Made by a program: the position numbers and the translations under genes. Positions 54,039 through 61,596 of a stretch of DNA of 64,000 bases are shown here, in pieces (the first letter of the stretch is position 1; each line of letters starts with the position of its first letter). A model generated the notes under the pieces. It worked only from the letters and a program-made list of their open reading frames with translations. It searched no databases and was not told where the DNA came from. Location: assembly GCF_018881835.1 (NCBI RefSeq), contig NZ_JACVPO010000001.1:310001-374000 (forward strand). The letters are read 5' to 3'. The DNA comes from Polynucleobacter hallstattensis. GTDB lineage: Bacteria; Pseudomonadota; Gammaproteobacteria; Burkholderiales; Burkholderiaceae.

Positions 54039-55556
54039 TTGTATTTCAGCAAATATATTTTTCCTTTGTGGATGAAGCTCAGCTTATGCATCGGAGTAGC
54101 CCTCAGCTGCTCCGTAATGGCGCAGCCTATAGAAAAAAATACCGTAGTTGGGTCAAAGCGTTTTACAGAAAGCTACGTGCTCGGGGAGCTGGTCAATCAA
54201 ACATTACGGGATGCTGGCGTTCAAGCCATCCATCGGCAAGGCCTTGGCAATACTGCGATTGTCATTCAAGCACTGACAACGGGTCAGATTGATGTTTACC
54301 CAGAGTACACCGGTACCATTCTGCGAGAAATTCTAAAACGCTCAGAAACCCTAGCATCACTGAGCGAGCTCAATGTTTGGCTTAAGCCTAAGGGCTTAAA
54401 AGTAGTGGTACCACTTGGGTTCAATAACACCTATGCACTTGCCATGAGGGCAGAGCAAGCTAGAACTTTAGGCCTAAAGCGTATCAGCGATATTGCAAAC
54501 CTCAGCACTGAGCAGCAAGCCACTTTGCGAATCGCCTTATCTCCAGAATTTAAGACTCGGGCGGATGGTTGGTCTGCGCTGGTTAAAAATTACCGCCTAA
54601 CAATGAAGCCAGGGAAAGTACTAGAGCATGGCCTAGCCTACGATGCTCTGGCACGAGGCGATGTCGATATTGTGGACGCCTACTCCACTGATGCGGCGAT
54701 TGCGCAAAAGAATCTGGTTCTATTGGAAGACGATAGGGGGGCATTTCCACGCTATGATGCCGTGTTGTTAATGCGCTCTGATTTTGATGAAAAGCCCTTA
54801 CAAAGCTTAGAGGGGAAATTAGACGAAGTCACCATGGCCAAACTTAATGGATTGGCTGAGTCAGGCCTTAGTTTTGAAAAAGTGGCAAATATTTTTTTAA
54901 ACGCAAGCGTAAATGATCAGCAGAGTCAAACCCAGCTCTCTCGGTTTTTTAAGCTACTCTTTGGTTCAGATTTTTTGACCACTCTGCGTGATCATGTTCT
55001 GCTTGTAGCGATCTCTTCAACGATGGCTCTTCTTGTCGGAATTCCTCTAGGCATTCTGGCCTATCGAAGACCCCGATATGCAGCTTGGATTTTAGGGGCT
55101 ACTGGTATTTTGCAAACCATACCTTCACTTGCACTGCTGACGATATTGATTGCTTTACTAGATCAAATAGGGGCTGTGCCAGCAGTTTTAGCCCTATTTC
55201 TATATGGCCTACTGCCCATTGTGAATGCAACCCACATTAGTTTGGTGGAGGTTCCATCCAATCTCAAAGAAGCAGCGCTGGCTCTTGGCTGTAATGAGTG
55301 GCAGTTACTATTGTCAATCGAGCTTCCGTTTGCTCGGCCCGTCATCATGACGGGTTTGGCATCAGCAACCGTGATTGGAGTTGGTACCTGCACCCTAGCA
55401 GCGCTAGTGGGTGCCGGCGGATTTGGTGATCGCATAGTAGCTGGGCTGGCCGTAAACGACCACGCGCTGATGCTTGCTGGAGCCATCCCAGCCGCTATGC
55501 TGGCTCTGTTAGCGCAAATGATTCTGACGCCAAAACACAAATCAAAAAATATCTAG
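54039..55556 (+). CDS. fused substrate-binding protein and permease, betaine/choline/ergothioneine ABC type
   Basis: A 505-aa protein. A signal/anchor segment is followed by an OpuAC-like binding domain (about 30-285; VGSKRFTESYVLGELV, TGQIDVYPEYTGTI, YDALARGDVDIVDAYSTDA). A permease domain with about five or six helices follows (ILQTIPSLALLTILIALLDQ, then ALALGCNEWQLLLSIELPFA). Here the binding domain comes first. TTG at 54039 has AAGAGG upstream; ATG 54072 is the alternative. No ATPase gene is near. The ligand could be betaine, choline or ergothioneine/selenoneine, the last suggested by the neighbouring sen genes. Confidence 0.85.
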   Translation: MYFSKYIFPLWMKLSLCIGVALSCSVMAQPIEKNTVVGSKRFTESYVLGELVNQTLRDAGVQAIHRQGLGNTAIVIQALTTGQIDVYPEYTGTILREILKRSETLASLSELNVWLKPKGLKVVVPLGFNNTYALAMRAEQARTLGLKRISDIANLSTEQQATLRIALSPEFKTRADGWSALVKNYRLTMKPGKVLEHGLAYDALARGDVDIVDAYSTDAAIAQKNLVLLEDDRGAFPRYDAVLLMRSDFDEKPLQSLEGKLDEVTMAKLNGLAESGLSFEKVANIFLNASVNDQQSQTQLSRFFKLLFGSDFLTTLRDHVLLVAISSTMALLVGIPLGILAYRRPRYAAWILGATGILQTIPSLALLTILIALLDQIGAVPAVLALFLYGLLPIVNATHISLVEVPSNLKEAALALGCNEWQLLLSIELPFARPVIMTGLASATVIGVGTCTLAALVGAGGFGDRIVAGLAVNDHALMLAGAIPAAMLALLAQMILTPKHKSKNI

Positions 55557-56328: not shown

Positions 56329-57498
56329 ATGTCCGAATCCTTAAGCAACGATTATCCTCTCTACACTCCGCATCCACCCGGGTCGACCTTGGCTCTGTGG
56401 CTAGAGGAAAGTAACCGCATCACCCGTCAGATTCTGAGCAATATTTCGGCAGCAGATCAGATGGTTCCCCAACTCAACATTCTGAATCCCCCGCTGTGGG
56501 AATTGGGTCACTTAACCTGGTTTCATGAATTCTGGGTTCATCGCGATGGCCAAGAGAGTAAGCCATCATTCATGCAGAACGCTGATTACTTATTTAATTC
56601 CTCAGAGATGGCACATCAAGATCGTTGGTCCACTCCAATGCCATCCTTAGATAGCTTACTGGAATACAACCACAGCGTCATTGAAGCCACCCAAGAGTTA
56701 CTGCGCGCACCAATCGACAATAAAGTTGCCTACTTTATCCAGCTGGCAATCTTGCATCAGGATATGCACAATGAAGCATTTGCCTATATGTGGCAGACCA
56801 TGGGACGCCCTATTCCTTTTACCCCCTTTACTCCCTTCACTAAAGAGAGCAAGTTGGAGACCAATCCGCAAACCTGGATTCATTTCCCAAAATCAACAAT
56901 ACAAGCAGGTTCCGAGCAGGGCTCCGGCTTTATTTTTGATAATGAAAAGTGGCTGCACTCTGTTGACCTACCCGCATTTGATATTGCGAGTACACCCGTC
57001 ACCAATGGCGACTATCTAAACTTCCTAGAATCACCAAGTCATCTTGCCCAGTCCACGCCTGTAGCACCACCCTCTCACTGGAAAAAGGATGGAGCTGTTT
57101 GGTTGGAGCGAATGTTTAATCAATGGCTACCTTTAAATCGCGCAGCGGCTGTTCGTCATATTAGCTATTTAGATGCTCAGCGTTTTTGTGAGCACCATCA
57201 AGTACGCCTACCTAACGAATATGAGCTTGGCCTATTAATGTCGCAAAAACAGGGGGCTTGGCAATCATCTAATTTATGGGAATGGACTAGCAGCACTTTT
57301 TCACCCTTCCCAGGATTTAGTGCCGATCCCTATGTCGACTACTCACAGCCCTGGTTTGATGGCAGCTATCAGGTGCTTAAGGGTGGCAGCTCGTTTACCC
57401 CTGATCGCTTGAGAAGAGTGGCATTTCGTAACTTTTATCAAGGTCAGAGAAGCGATCATTTTTGCGGCTTTCGTACGTGTTTACTCCAAATTGAGTAA
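56329..57498 (+). CDS. senA: selenoneine synthase (EgtB-like) SenA
   Basis: A 389-aa non-heme iron enzyme of the EgtB/SenA family. The N-terminal DinB-like domain supplies a probable three-His iron site: His61 in LGHLTWFHEF and His143 and His147 in HQDMHNEA. The C-terminal sulfatase-modifying-factor (FGE) domain has VRLPNEYELG, NLWEWTSSTFSPFPGF and FCGFRTC. EgtB makes a C-S bond to hercynine; SenA uses a selenosugar for a C-Se bond. I call it SenA because selD follows 51 bp downstream and senB is in the same cluster. Confidence 0.85.
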   Translation: MSESLSNDYPLYTPHPPGSTLALWLEESNRITRQILSNISAADQMVPQLNILNPPLWELGHLTWFHEFWVHRDGQESKPSFMQNADYLFNSSEMAHQDRWSTPMPSLDSLLEYNHSVIEATQELLRAPIDNKVAYFIQLAILHQDMHNEAFAYMWQTMGRPIPFTPFTPFTKESKLETNPQTWIHFPKSTIQAGSEQGSGFIFDNEKWLHSVDLPAFDIASTPVTNGDYLNFLESPSHLAQSTPVAPPSHWKKDGAVWLERMFNQWLPLNRAAAVRHISYLDAQRFCEHHQVRLPNEYELGLLMSQKQGAWQSSNLWEWTSSTFSPFPGFSADPYVDYSQPWFDGSYQVLKGGSSFTPDRLRRVAFRNFYQGQRSDHFCGFRTCLLQIE

Positions 57499-57549
57499 GC
57501 TCATGATGTTGCGGTAACTACTACTTTTAATCTGAATTGTTAATACTTT

Positions 57550-58596
57550 ATGACTACACCTTATAACGGTCGCCTTACCTCTCTTTCTCACGGCGGAGGC
57601 TGTGGCTGCAAGATTGCACCTGGCGTCTTAAGTGACATCCTGAAGGCCTCACCAATGCGCAATCTACCCGCTGCTTTGTTAGCGGGTTCCGATAACAACG
57701 AAGATGCTGCCGTTTACCAGATAAATGAAAATCAGGCGATTGTTGCTACGACGGATTTCTTTATGCCAATCGTAGATGATCCATTTGAGTTTGGCCGTAT
57801 TGCTGCCACCAATGCAATTTCTGACATTTATGCAATGGGGGCTCAGCCCCTGTTTGCACTAGCCCTACTGGGCATGCCAATTCAAGTTTTACCTTTAGAA
57901 GTGATCCAGCAAGTGACTGCTGGTGGCGAATCCGTCTGTAATGATGCGGGCATCATGATTGCTGGTGGTCACTCTATTGATACGGTAGAGCCAATTTATG
58001 GCCTTGTCGCGATTGGTGTAGTCGACCCAAAAAAGTTGAAACGTAACAGCGGTGCTCAAGCAGGCGATAGCATCATCCTCAGTAAGCCCTTAGGTGTAGG
58101 CATTCTTTCTGCAGCACTAAAGAAAGAAGTTCTCTCTGATGCGGGTTACAAAGAGATGATTGCCCTCACCACAAAACTGAATAAGCCAGGTGTGGCACTC
58201 TCCCAGCTAAATGGTGTACATGCCTTAACCGATGTCACGGGCTTTGGCCTTGCAGGGCATTTGCTAGAGATGGCACGAGGCTCCAATTTAATGGCCAAGA
58301 TCGACTGGGATGCTATTCCAGTTGTGAAGGAAGCAATTGAGCACGTCAAAGCAGACATCTTTACCGGCGCATCTACGCGCAATTGGGCTGGCTACGGCAA
58401 AGAAATTCAGCTCGCGAGCAACCTAGAGCTATGGCAACAAAATGTGCTTACCGATCCACAAACCAGCGGTGGTTTACTGATTGCTTGCGCACCAGAGCAA
58501 GAGTCTGAAGTCTTATCAATTCTCAATGCAGGCGGCTTTGCTAGTGCTCAAAAAATCGGTCAGTTCGTAGCGGGTACGGGCTTGTCTGTCGCCTAA
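57550..58596 (+). CDS. selD: selenide, water dikinase (selenophosphate synthase)
   Basis: A 348-aa enzyme that makes selenophosphate from selenide and ATP. The active-site GGGCGCK motif has Cys18, Cys20 and Lys21, so this is a cysteine form and not a selenocysteine one. ATTDFFMPIVDDPFEFGRIA, NAISDIYAMGAQPLFALALL and LTDVTGFGLAGHL are typical. In the three-gene selenoneine clusters this protein is called SenC. Its place between senA and egtD fits that role; it could also serve selenocysteine or selenouridine synthesis. Confidence 0.94.
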   Translation: MTTPYNGRLTSLSHGGGCGCKIAPGVLSDILKASPMRNLPAALLAGSDNNEDAAVYQINENQAIVATTDFFMPIVDDPFEFGRIAATNAISDIYAMGAQPLFALALLGMPIQVLPLEVIQQVTAGGESVCNDAGIMIAGGHSIDTVEPIYGLVAIGVVDPKKLKRNSGAQAGDSIILSKPLGVGILSAALKKEVLSDAGYKEMIALTTKLNKPGVALSQLNGVHALTDVTGFGLAGHLLEMARGSNLMAKIDWDAIPVVKEAIEHVKADIFTGASTRNWAGYGKEIQLASNLELWQQNVLTDPQTSGGLLIACAPEQESEVLSILNAGGFASAQKIGQFVAGTGLSVA

Positions 58597-58608
58597 AGAA
58601 TTGAACCA

Positions 58609-59538
58609 ATGAAAAATACTTTGACTGAAGAGTTGCTGGTCAGCCTTAGCGCTGATAAGCCATCGATATCGCCAAAGTTTTTTTATGATGATGTCGGATC
58701 ACATCTATTTGATGTGATTACACTGCTCAATGAATACTATCCAACTCGCACAGAGAAATGGATTATGGTTGCCTATCGGCGTGAGATTGCTGATGCTGTA
58801 GCTCATTGCGACGTTTTGGTAGATCTAGGTGCCGGTAATTGCGCCAAAGGAAGTCAACTTTTCACTAGTATTAAGCCAAAACAATATAGAGCGCTCGATA
58901 TTTCAAAAGAATATTTAGAGGCTGCTGTTGCTGATCTAGAAAAGCAGTTCCCTCAAATTGAGATGTCAGCTCAGGCCGTCGATCTGAGCTTGCCACTAAC
59001 GTTTCCTGAACTTCAAGCGCTTCGGAAAGTATTTTTCTACCCAGGTTCCTCAATCGGCAACTTTGATCCCGAAAAAGCAGATCAGTTTTTTATAAATCTT
59101 GCTCAGGAGTGCTACGGGAATGGCGGGCTTTTAATTGGAGTCGATCTAGTTAAAGATACACAAACCCTAAACCTAGCCTACAACGACCCTTTGGGAGTTA
59201 CTGCCGCATTTAATTTGAATGCCCTGCTAAACGTCAATCGACTGATTGGCAGCAACTTTAAACTTCAGGATTGGGAGCACTACGCTTTTTATAACGCTTC
59301 TCAGTCCCGTATTGAGATGCATCTGCGAGCACGATCTGATGTGCAGGTGACTCTGCCGAGCAATGGAAGTCAAGATCATATTATTTCCTTTAGTAAAGGC
59401 GATTTAATTCATACTGAAAATAGCTACAAATACACCCAAGAAAATTTCGTAGAAAAACTTCGTCGTGCTGGATTCACTGATATTCAATGCTGGACCGATC
59501 CAAAAAAGCACTTTTTAGTTTGCTTTGCAAATACCTAA
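58609..59538 (+). CDS. egtD: L-histidine N(alpha)-methyltransferase
   Basis: A 309-aa SAM-dependent enzyme that trimethylates histidine to hercynine. Family features are KFFYDDVGSHLFDVI, the YYPTRTE motif, LVDLGAGNCAKGSQL in the SAM site, FFYPGSSIGNF, GVDLVKD, AYNDPLGVTAAFNLN and the C-terminal YNASQSRIEMHLRA. It starts 12 bp after selD on the same strand, giving a senA-selD-egtD operon. Hercynine is the acceptor needed by SenA. Confidence 0.94.
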   Translation: MKNTLTEELLVSLSADKPSISPKFFYDDVGSHLFDVITLLNEYYPTRTEKWIMVAYRREIADAVAHCDVLVDLGAGNCAKGSQLFTSIKPKQYRALDISKEYLEAAVADLEKQFPQIEMSAQAVDLSLPLTFPELQALRKVFFYPGSSIGNFDPEKADQFFINLAQECYGNGGLLIGVDLVKDTQTLNLAYNDPLGVTAAFNLNALLNVNRLIGSNFKLQDWEHYAFYNASQSRIEMHLRARSDVQVTLPSNGSQDHIISFSKGDLIHTENSYKYTQENFVEKLRRAGFTDIQCWTDPKKHFLVCFANT

Positions 59539-59547
59539 TTGGCCTAA

Positions 59548-60507
59548 TTAATTCCCAAGTAGCTGAATCATCAACTCTTGAATGGATTGCATCTCTCGGT
59601 TAGGACTTACGAGATCTCTGCGAGTATCAATCTGTTTTTTTAGTGCAGAGTAAAAATCAGGCATGGTTTCAGCACGAGATAGCAAGCTTGCAAGTTCAAC
59701 CTCATTACCTACCGGATAGTAGCCCAGATAGTCATCTCCAAGCAGACCTCGATTCCCCGGAATATCCGAAGCAATCACTGGTACCCCTAGTGCTATTGCC
59801 TCTGAAACCACATGAGCACCGCCCTCCATTCGACTGGAAATCACCATCAGACGACTCTGAGAGAGCGCCTTTAATGTATCGACATGACTTAGCTCGCCAA
59901 TCCATTGGTAATGCTCTAGATTTTCGTTATACCCAAGAGCAGCACGCTCCATTTGCTCATTCATGGCCATACCTAAATGTAGAACGCTGATTTTAGAATT
60001 TAATGGCAACAGGGGAAGGCTGCGGGCGATACAAAAGGGATCTTTCTCCTCCCTTAGATGACCAATCACTATTATTTGAAAATCCGCACTCAGAATTTTA
60101 TTGGGAATATCAACCCGAACCGATTGATAAATTACTCGGGCTTTATGTCGCAGATACGCTGGAATTGAATCTAAGGCCGAGGACTGCAAGACGATCAATT
60201 GATCTGCCACTTCCATTGAGCGCAGGACTTCAACATGGTCTGCCATATCTCGATACAAATCAGTACCTGTTAAAACCAAGGTAATAGGCCGATTAGGGTG
60301 CTGCTCATGAAACGCCATCATCGATGAATGACTTCGATAGGCATGCAAGGCTATCAGCATGGCGGCATCTTCACCTGACCAGGATTCAGTCACTACAACT
60401 GCATAGCCAAGCTTCTCCAAGAAATCCTGCCAGCGTAGCGCCGTGATCCGGTTTCCGTGCAGACTACCTGATGGTGCCGGCGTTACGATTTCAATAAGGG
60501 ATTTGAT
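59548..60507 (-). CDS. senB: selenosugar synthase SenB (family 4-like glycosyltransferase), non-canonical start
   Basis: A GT-B glycosyltransferase of the SenB type that would join selenophosphate to a nucleotide sugar. The N-terminal IVTPAPSGSLHGNRITALRW and the C-terminal MEGGAHVVSEAIALGVPVIA and SDIPGNRG fit. The first in-frame ATG/GTG/TTG is TTG at 60418-60420, but it lies after the conserved PAPSGSLHGNR region. The open frame continues back to a stop at 60535-60537 with no usual start codon. ATC at 60505-60507, six bases after an AGG, gives 319 aa; ATT at 60493-60495 is the alternative. The gene converges with egtD (9-bp gap). Confidence 0.78.
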   Translation of the reverse strand: MKSLIEIVTPAPSGSLHGNRITALRWQDFLEKLGYAVVVTESWSGEDAAMLIALHAYRSHSSMMAFHEQHPNRPITLVLTGTDLYRDMADHVEVLRSMEVADQLIVLQSSALDSIPAYLRHKARVIYQSVRVDIPNKILSADFQIIVIGHLREEKDPFCIARSLPLLPLNSKISVLHLGMAMNEQMERAALGYNENLEHYQWIGELSHVDTLKALSQSRLMVISSRMEGGAHVVSEAIALGVPVIASDIPGNRGLLGDDYLGYYPVGNEVELASLLSRAETMPDFYSALKKQIDTRRDLVSPNREMQSIQELMIQLLGN

Positions 60508-60622
60508 GTTGAACCTATTAAAAAGTACTGTTTTTTATACATCTAATGGTAATGGAGATTTACTATGCCAGTTGAGATACCCCGCAGTAATCCCTACCGA
60601 TTTAATTGCCTGCAAATACACT

Positions 60623-60669: not shown

Positions 60670-61596
60670 ATGACTCTTACTGAACTTCGCTACATCGTCG
60701 CAGTTGCACGTGAACGCCACTTTGGAAGAGCGGCAGATGCCTGCTTTGTGTCCCAGCCTACACTATCAGTAGCCATCAGAAAGCTAGAGGAAGAACTCAA
60801 TACGCAAATCTTTGAGCGCACCAATACCGAGGTTGCAATGACTAGCCTCGGCTCACTGATTGTGGACCAGGCTCAAAGAGTGCTTGAAGAAGCTAACTCC
60901 TTAAAGCACTTAGCAAAGCATGGGCAAGATCCTCTATCTGGCCCACTCAGGCTTGGTGCGATCTATACCATTGCACCTTACCTATTGCCCAGCTTAGTGC
61001 GAGTTGCACGAGAGCGCCTGCCTCATGCCCCTTTATTTTTAGAAGAAAACTTCACCGTTCGCCTTCTTGAAGTTTTACGTCAAGGGGCTTTAGATTGCAT
61101 AGTGATTGCAGACCCTTTCGCAAGCACAGGACTTAATCAAATTGATTTGTATGACGAACCTTTTTTAGTGGCGGTACCTAAAGGTCATCCTTGGGAAAAT
61201 AGACCATTCATTCCGCATCGGGAGCTAAAAGAGCAAAATACTTTGTTACTAGGTACTGGGCACTGTTTTCGAGACCATGTGCTTGGTGTCTGCCCAGAAT
61301 TGAATCGCTTAGGCTCTGGAACCACGATTGGGGAGCAGCGTAGCTTTGAGGGTTCATCCCTGGAAACTATTCGACAGATGGTAGCTAGTGGCATCGGTAT
61401 TTCAGTACTACCGAGAACGTCCGCCTCTGATAATGCATCCGCAGATCAACTCATTCGCTATATTCCATTTGAAGACCCTATTCCAACCAGACGAGTTTGT
61501 CTCGTCTGGCGGAAAAACTTCCCACGCGCCGCTGCTATGGATGAACTAGCTGAAGTAATTCGTCAATGCGCCTTGCCAGGCGTTCAGTATCTTTAG
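60670..61596 (+). CDS. oxyR: hydrogen-peroxide-responsive LysR regulator OxyR
   Basis: A 308-aa LysR-type regulator. The N-terminal helix-turn-helix has RHFGRAADACFVSQPTLSVA. The redox cysteines fall exactly at Cys199 and Cys208 (GTGHCFRDHVLGVCPE), as in E. coli OxyR, where peroxide forms a disulfide between them. It is divergent from senB across 162 bp and followed by the DUF3501/Fe-S pair on the other strand. This places the selenoneine genes beside a peroxide-stress regulator. Confidence 0.94.
   Translation: MTLTELRYIVAVARERHFGRAADACFVSQPTLSVAIRKLEEELNTQIFERTNTEVAMTSLGSLIVDQAQRVLEEANSLKHLAKHGQDPLSGPLRLGAIYTIAPYLLPSLVRVARERLPHAPLFLEENFTVRLLEVLRQGALDCIVIADPFASTGLNQIDLYDEPFLVAVPKGHPWENRPFIPHRELKEQNTLLLGTGHCFRDHVLGVCPELNRLGSGTTIGEQRSFEGSSLETIRQMVASGIGISVLPRTSASDNASADQLIRYIPFEDPIPTRRVCLVWRKNFPRAAAMDELAEVIRQCALPGVQYL

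Follow-up and report, generated by a model that had tools for sequence, protein, structure and literature searches.

Selenoneine is a selenium antioxidant, and its sen cluster was reportedly described in Variovorax paradoxus by Kayrouz in 2022. Here we analyze the corresponding genes in a 64,000-nucleotide stretch of DNA (the window) from Polynucleobacter hallstattensis, a member of a widespread freshwater genus. The Variovorax cluster is documented in PMC9814287 and in the accessible parts of PMC10702425 and PMC10891094, the last of which maps nine residues of Variovorax SenB. For translation initiation, the closest described cases are infC and Streptomyces sigR. According to the accessible part of PMC5472188, infC, which is subject to autoregulation by IF3, starts with ATT in Escherichia coli and with ATC in Streptomyces, and the IF3-repressed GTC start of Streptomyces sigR, which was shown experimentally, illustrates that a non-canonical codon can act as a regulatory element. 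The accessible part of PMC10158994 describes IF3 as strict about the start codon, where nothing but strong pairing at the third base is tolerated, with rising IF3 disfavoring AUC read by the weaker-pairing UAU and AAU anticodons and AUU read by CAU; the natural AUC–CAU pair differs from these.

The locus of the window (Table 1) resides in a genome of 2.1 Mb. The initial annotation proposed that senA, selD, and egtD share one strand and that senB converges on them, and the open reading frames were found as described: the first three genes run head to tail with gaps of 51 bp (senA–selD) and 12 bp (selD–egtD), and the end of senB faces that of egtD across 9 bp. Its interpretation of the genes as a selenoneine locus is supported by the SenA tree, by the SenB family score and residues, and by genome searches, with the protein identities assigned by sequence. 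We therefore regard the window as probably carrying a complete sen locus, a new member of a pathway that has already been published, although no report of selenoneine genes in Polynucleobacter was found in open-access PMC among the matches listed. Like the Variovorax system, it encodes homologs of SenA, SenB, and SelD/SenC and retains the nine mapped SenB residues. It carries egtD between selD and senB, with senB convergent, an arrangement reported here without a gene-order comparison to Variovorax. The two differ in that window SenA is identical to the Variovorax SenA segment at only 124 of 321 aligned residues and falls below its NCBIfam cut-off, and in that window senB starts with ATC. A scan for sigma-70-type promoters found one site (8.9 expected), a terminator scan found none (3.7 expected), and an Rfam search gave no match.

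Table 1. Features of the sen locus and its surroundings, in window coordinates.
Feature	Coordinates	Strand	Basis
OpuAC-permease fusion, subunit of a quaternary-amine-type ABC importer	54039-55556	+	family; sen-associated in the genus
senA, selenoneine synthase with DinB-like and FGE domains, His61/143/147	56329-57498	+	family, domain, structure match, tree
selD (senC), selenide, water dikinase, cysteine form	57550-58596	+	family match
egtD, histidine N-alpha-methyltransferase	58609-59538	+	family match; sole EgtD found in genome
senB, selenosugar synthase (Se-glycosyltransferase), convergent to egtD	59548-60507	-	family, structure match, residues
ATC (AUC) start codon of senB, inferred	60505-60507	-	comparison of senB genes
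AGG, Shine-Dalgarno-like, 6 nt ahead of the senB ATC	60514-60516	-	AGG/AAGG in 20/21 senB
TAA in frame upstream of senB	60535-60537	-	ATG/GTG/TTG absent from there to codon 30
OxyR-like LysR regulator, 162 bp from senB and divergent from it	60670-61596	+	OxyR 270 bits, cut-off 329

The best family for the 56329 protein was SenA (NF041186), at 398.1 bits and thus below the cut-off of 420, as is also the case for the SenA proteins of genus loci L064 and L068. The protein carries both the FGE domain and the three histidines (His61, His143, and His147) noted at the outset, the latter aligning with Variovorax SenA histidines, and a DinB-like domain is present as well. Nevertheless, TIGR03440 (EgtB) also matches it, and the genes could in principle constitute an ergothioneine locus of the EgtB type next to an unrelated glycosyltransferase. 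We give this reading almost no credence. The EgtB match reaches 212.7 bits against a cut-off of 360, whereas the one scanned EgtB of the genus scores the opposite way (EgtB 481, SenA 322 bits), and the egtB_X signature yields 67 bits in window SenA (cut-off 71) versus 20 in that EgtB. In a tree of 85 rows, which was rooted at its midpoint and represents Variovorax by a partial sequence, the seven EgtB rows of the genus split off with support of 100/100 on a branch that is 3.19 changes per site long, and the 56329 protein lies on the SenA side with Variovorax SenA, apart from EgtB. The family score far below cut-off, the reverse-scoring genus EgtB, and the tree led us to reject the EgtB identity for this protein. 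The wider alternative is further opposed by a SenB protein above its cut-off and by the presence of SenA in 41 of the 43 genus genomes with a predicted selenate-binding protein above cut-off. Despite its sub-cut-off SenA, the locus is filed as a putative sen locus on the basis of the tree, SenB, SelD, and context.

The nearest solved structures to SenA are 8ryz and 8k5i, both selenoneine synthase, and OvsA is the next match, at 181 bits compared to 185 bits for SenA, a small gap. This proximity, together with relatives that retain senB and selD but lack SenA and any EgtD above cut-off, would fit a locus that makes another selenium product, for example ovoselenol (via OvsA) or a bare selenosugar. 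We consider such a product very unlikely, given that SenA is both the best family and, if narrowly, the better structure match, and that the neighboring EgtD implies hercynine, the SenA substrate. SelD was matched by two families at 513 and 421 bits (cut-offs 299 and 125), and its annotation as the cysteine form holds, with HGGGCGCK, which we take to be the catalytic-cysteine motif, present and in-frame TGA absent. EgtD exceeds its TIGR03438 cut-off (341.1 bits versus 290.9).

The SenB protein scores 378.7 bits with TIGR04348, whose equivalog cut-off is 300, and its nearest solved structures are 8k5u and 8jjn (Se-glycosyltransferase). Nine residues (N19, T22, H55, R58, T80, T82, R152, K155, and E228) are invariant in 10 genus rows and align with the nine mapped Variovorax residues, such that N20, T23, K158, and E231 of Variovorax SenB correspond to N19, T22, K155, and E228 here. 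With a score above the cut-off and all nine checked residues kept, the 59548 protein does not belong among unrelated glycosyltransferases. The rest of the genome, which the initial annotation had marked for inspection, yielded no SelA, no EgtB above cut-off (a remote 33.6-bit match only), and no second EgtD, the single EgtD being the locus copy. It does encode MnmH (tRNA 2-selenouridine synthase) outside the locus and, on the other contig, a binding protein predicted to serve a selenate ABC transporter.

Homology to SenB extends to about position 60507, where the codon is ATC, a non-canonical start, and the first canonical in-frame start is TTG at 60420 (codon 30), beyond the conserved N19 and T22. 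We therefore compared start codons for senB, senA, selD, egtD, and infC. The senB set comprised 21 distinct genes, the window's own counted, that are at least 65% identical and have a readable N-terminus. Nineteen loci with an unrecognized N-terminal motif or a contig ending within the gene were set aside, among them L048, L124, L145, and the broken L083, all at least 65% identical, and the count likewise excludes G027 senB and the G179 fragments. A split senB (L047) was retained in the start count and in the substitution analysis below but was omitted from the SenB tree by length. Codon 1 is ATC in 20 of the 21 genes and ATT in the other, and AGG or AAGG lies closely upstream in all but one (L045). 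From the upstream stop to residue 7, 17 genes have no ATG, GTG, or TTG; in nine, namely that of the window and those of 8 of the 20 relatives, this absence extends to residue 15; and in 11 a stop codon occurs within three codons upstream of codon 1. The genes at 20 of the same loci served as controls: senA starts with ATG in 20/20 and selD in 19/20 (in L047 the selD match starts at residue 18 and no start codon was found), whereas egtD starts with ATG in 13 and GTG in 6 of the 19 loci with a match.

It is conceivable that senB starts elsewhere, either downstream at GTG 8 or TTG 30, or at an upstream TTG or GTG where one is present. A GTG occupies codon 8 in nine of the 21 genes (8 of the 17 that are startless to residue 7), an upstream in-frame TTG or GTG could start four of them, and such codons would be picked by any caller that accepts ATG, GTG, and TTG alone (TTG 60420 here). 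However, the nine genes devoid of a canonical start up to residue 15 include the window's, initiation at TTG 30 would remove N19 and T22, and the spacing of the Shine-Dalgarno-like motif fits codon 1. Moreover, pN/pS for senB codons 2–29 is 0.14, based on 210 non-independent pairs, whereas the two remaining frames of that strand give 1.7 and 2.2 and senB codons 30–110 give 0.25. This strong purifying selection indicates that codons 2–29 are translated in the senB frame, and initiation at another codon is accordingly judged very unlikely. The comparative data instead point to AUC as the codon at which translation of senB begins, conserved throughout one clade of Polynucleobacter. No report of an AUC start for senB was found in open-access PMC among the matches listed.

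In the SenB tree, the species with the non-canonical start form one clade of 20 rows (19 ATC, 1 ATT) with support of 100/99, and a different genus clade has TTG at the same codon in 13 rows. Note that the triplet by itself proves nothing, because five other rows (L058, L096, L097, L170, and L188) carry ATC or ATT at codon 1 while also having a canonical start that could be used. The AUC start could be real but neutral, that is, fixed once in the ancestor of the clade, adequate for initiation, and devoid of a regulatory role. A single origin indeed covers the main clade, with 20/20 rows on one branch, and the RNA fold at the senB start is not unusual (z 0.33). Against neutrality, there has been no reversion to ATG or TTG among 20 rows that have diverged to 65% SenB identity, even though one or two base changes would restore these codons, and ATT with no canonical alternative to residue 7 is found in two further lineages (L056 and L061). 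We hold neutral fixation to be a serious contender, at somewhat less than even odds.

The alternative that the AUC start has a regulatory role draws on infC. In all 30 genus loci compared (L197-L226, the best 30 of 161 genomes with a match), this gene opens with ATC and has no canonical in-frame start above, and the same holds in the genome of the window. Since IF3 is itself encoded by infC, a gene with an identical AUC start, the start of senB is probably weak and IF3-repressed, and we consider it likely, by analogy, that senB is poorly initiated. The two genes share the ATC codon, the lack of a canonical in-frame start, and the same genome, but senB encodes a metabolic enzyme and its control by IF3 is inferred. 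The likeness to sigR in the accessible part of PMC5472188 lies in a conserved start outside the set used by gene callers and in a stress-related gene, whereas sigR has GTC rather than ATC and encodes a sigma factor.

Among 60 loci of the genus (L034-L093) that were picked from SenA and EgtB hits, seven being EgtB loci and several being truncated at contig ends, the order senA-selD-egtD-senB occurs in 41, including the window and the broken L083. The presence of egtD within the cluster therefore stands as first proposed, but the emphasis on its being built in is weakened, since the order recurs in these loci and egtD is near senB elsewhere. At least 9 of 48 further loci (L148-L195), nearly all outside the genus, have egtD within 6 kb of senB, a lower bound because some loci are cut by contig ends. 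These belong to Alcaligenaceae, Rhodocyclales, and others, and two of the nine are weak matches (30 and 37% identity). The egtD-containing arrangement is thus shared rather than unique. In 23 of the 41 same-order loci, selD and egtD are separated by 3.4 kb, and in the five that were read (L037, L044, L056, L063, and L080) the gap holds four genes for a PhnCDE-like transporter of the predicted selenate type; the binding protein of L037, the sole one scanned, passes TIGR04553 (‘putative selenate’). The window locus has no such insert, and the binding protein of this family is the one encoded on the other contig. In L078, a four-gene PhnCDE-like transporter lies between selD and senB.

SenA was found at E < 1e-50 in 55 of 186 genus genomes, and 49 of the 57 with SenB above cut-off have it. 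These counts, together with the coupling to the selenate-binding protein, characterize the sen cluster as a patchy but ordinary trait of the genus. Several loci depart from the common form. Five (L096 in G111, L097 in G155, L098 in G127, L099 in G128, and L100 in G054) have senB and selD with no SenA match and no EgtD above cut-off, and their genomes may possibly make a bare selenosugar or another selenium metabolite. Decay is seen in L083 (G050), where senA and senB are broken alongside an intact selD; in L091 (G077), where only a senA remnant remains next to selD; and in L047 (G034), the locus with the split senB. Clusters of senA-egtD-senB without selD occur in L064 (G001) and in L065 and L066, both in G126; selD lies 19 kb from the G001 cluster and 13 kb from the first of the two in G126. 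In L064, an ATP-grasp-like gene with weak family matches overlaps the start of senA.

The OxyR-like gene diverges from senB in the window and in five of its eight nearest relatives (L035-L042). Its product is a possible regulator, although a simple-pattern scan of the senB-oxyR gap revealed no OxyR-type site. The OpuAC-permease importer has either sen genes or the selenate transporter as neighbors, and its orientation relative to them varies. At the threshold of E < 1e-50 for both SenA and OpuABC matches, it is present in 35 of 186 genus genomes, and SenA is found in 31 of these 35 compared to 24 of the 151 non-carriers (raw counts that ignore kinship). By comparison with the accessible part of PMC9732360, it resembles the ergothioneine importer EgtUBC in its fused binding domain and permease and, by alignment, in its cage tyrosines and Asn and in its Lys, Thr, Arg, and Glu contacts. 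However, its domain order is reversed, and EgtU G244 and F293 are replaced by Phe42 and Tyr, respectively, as in the betaine binder ProX. Identity with EgtU was therefore rejected on these two determinants, and betaine, hercynine, ergothioneine, and selenoneine all stay candidate cargoes.

Taken as a whole, we assign a probability of about 85% to the explanation that the window carries a complete sen locus whose senB has an AUC start that is probably weak and IF3-repressed and whose SelD is probably shared with MnmH. By analogy with characterized homologs, EgtD would trimethylate histidine to hercynine, SelD would make selenophosphate, and SenB would attach selenium to the sugar moiety that a UDP-sugar supplies. 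SenA would then couple the selenosugar oxidatively with hercynine, and the resulting selenoxide would break down to selenoneine. SelD of the window locus probably also feeds MnmH, which makes tRNA 2-selenouridine, and because of this second use a weak senB start would spare selenophosphate. Repression of the AUC start by IF3 would thereby cap the flow of selenophosphate into selenoneine. That this limitation is the purpose of the weak start is our interpretation, and neutral fixation is about as likely. We propose only tentatively, and with rather less than even confidence, that in this one clade translation initiation acts as the gate through which selenium is committed to selenoneine, so that the level of IF3 would set the balance between selenoneine and tRNA 2-selenouridine.

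These findings place a selenoneine locus in Polynucleobacter, whose genomes are small and whose SelD probably has two selenium uses. For at least nine of the genomes examined, the sequences predict that gene callers recognizing only ATG, GTG, and TTG would shorten SenB or put its start in the wrong place. If true, the conserved AUC start would be a rare natural case in a metabolic gene, beside infC, and senB would make it possible to test directly if metabolic flux is tuned by weak start codons.
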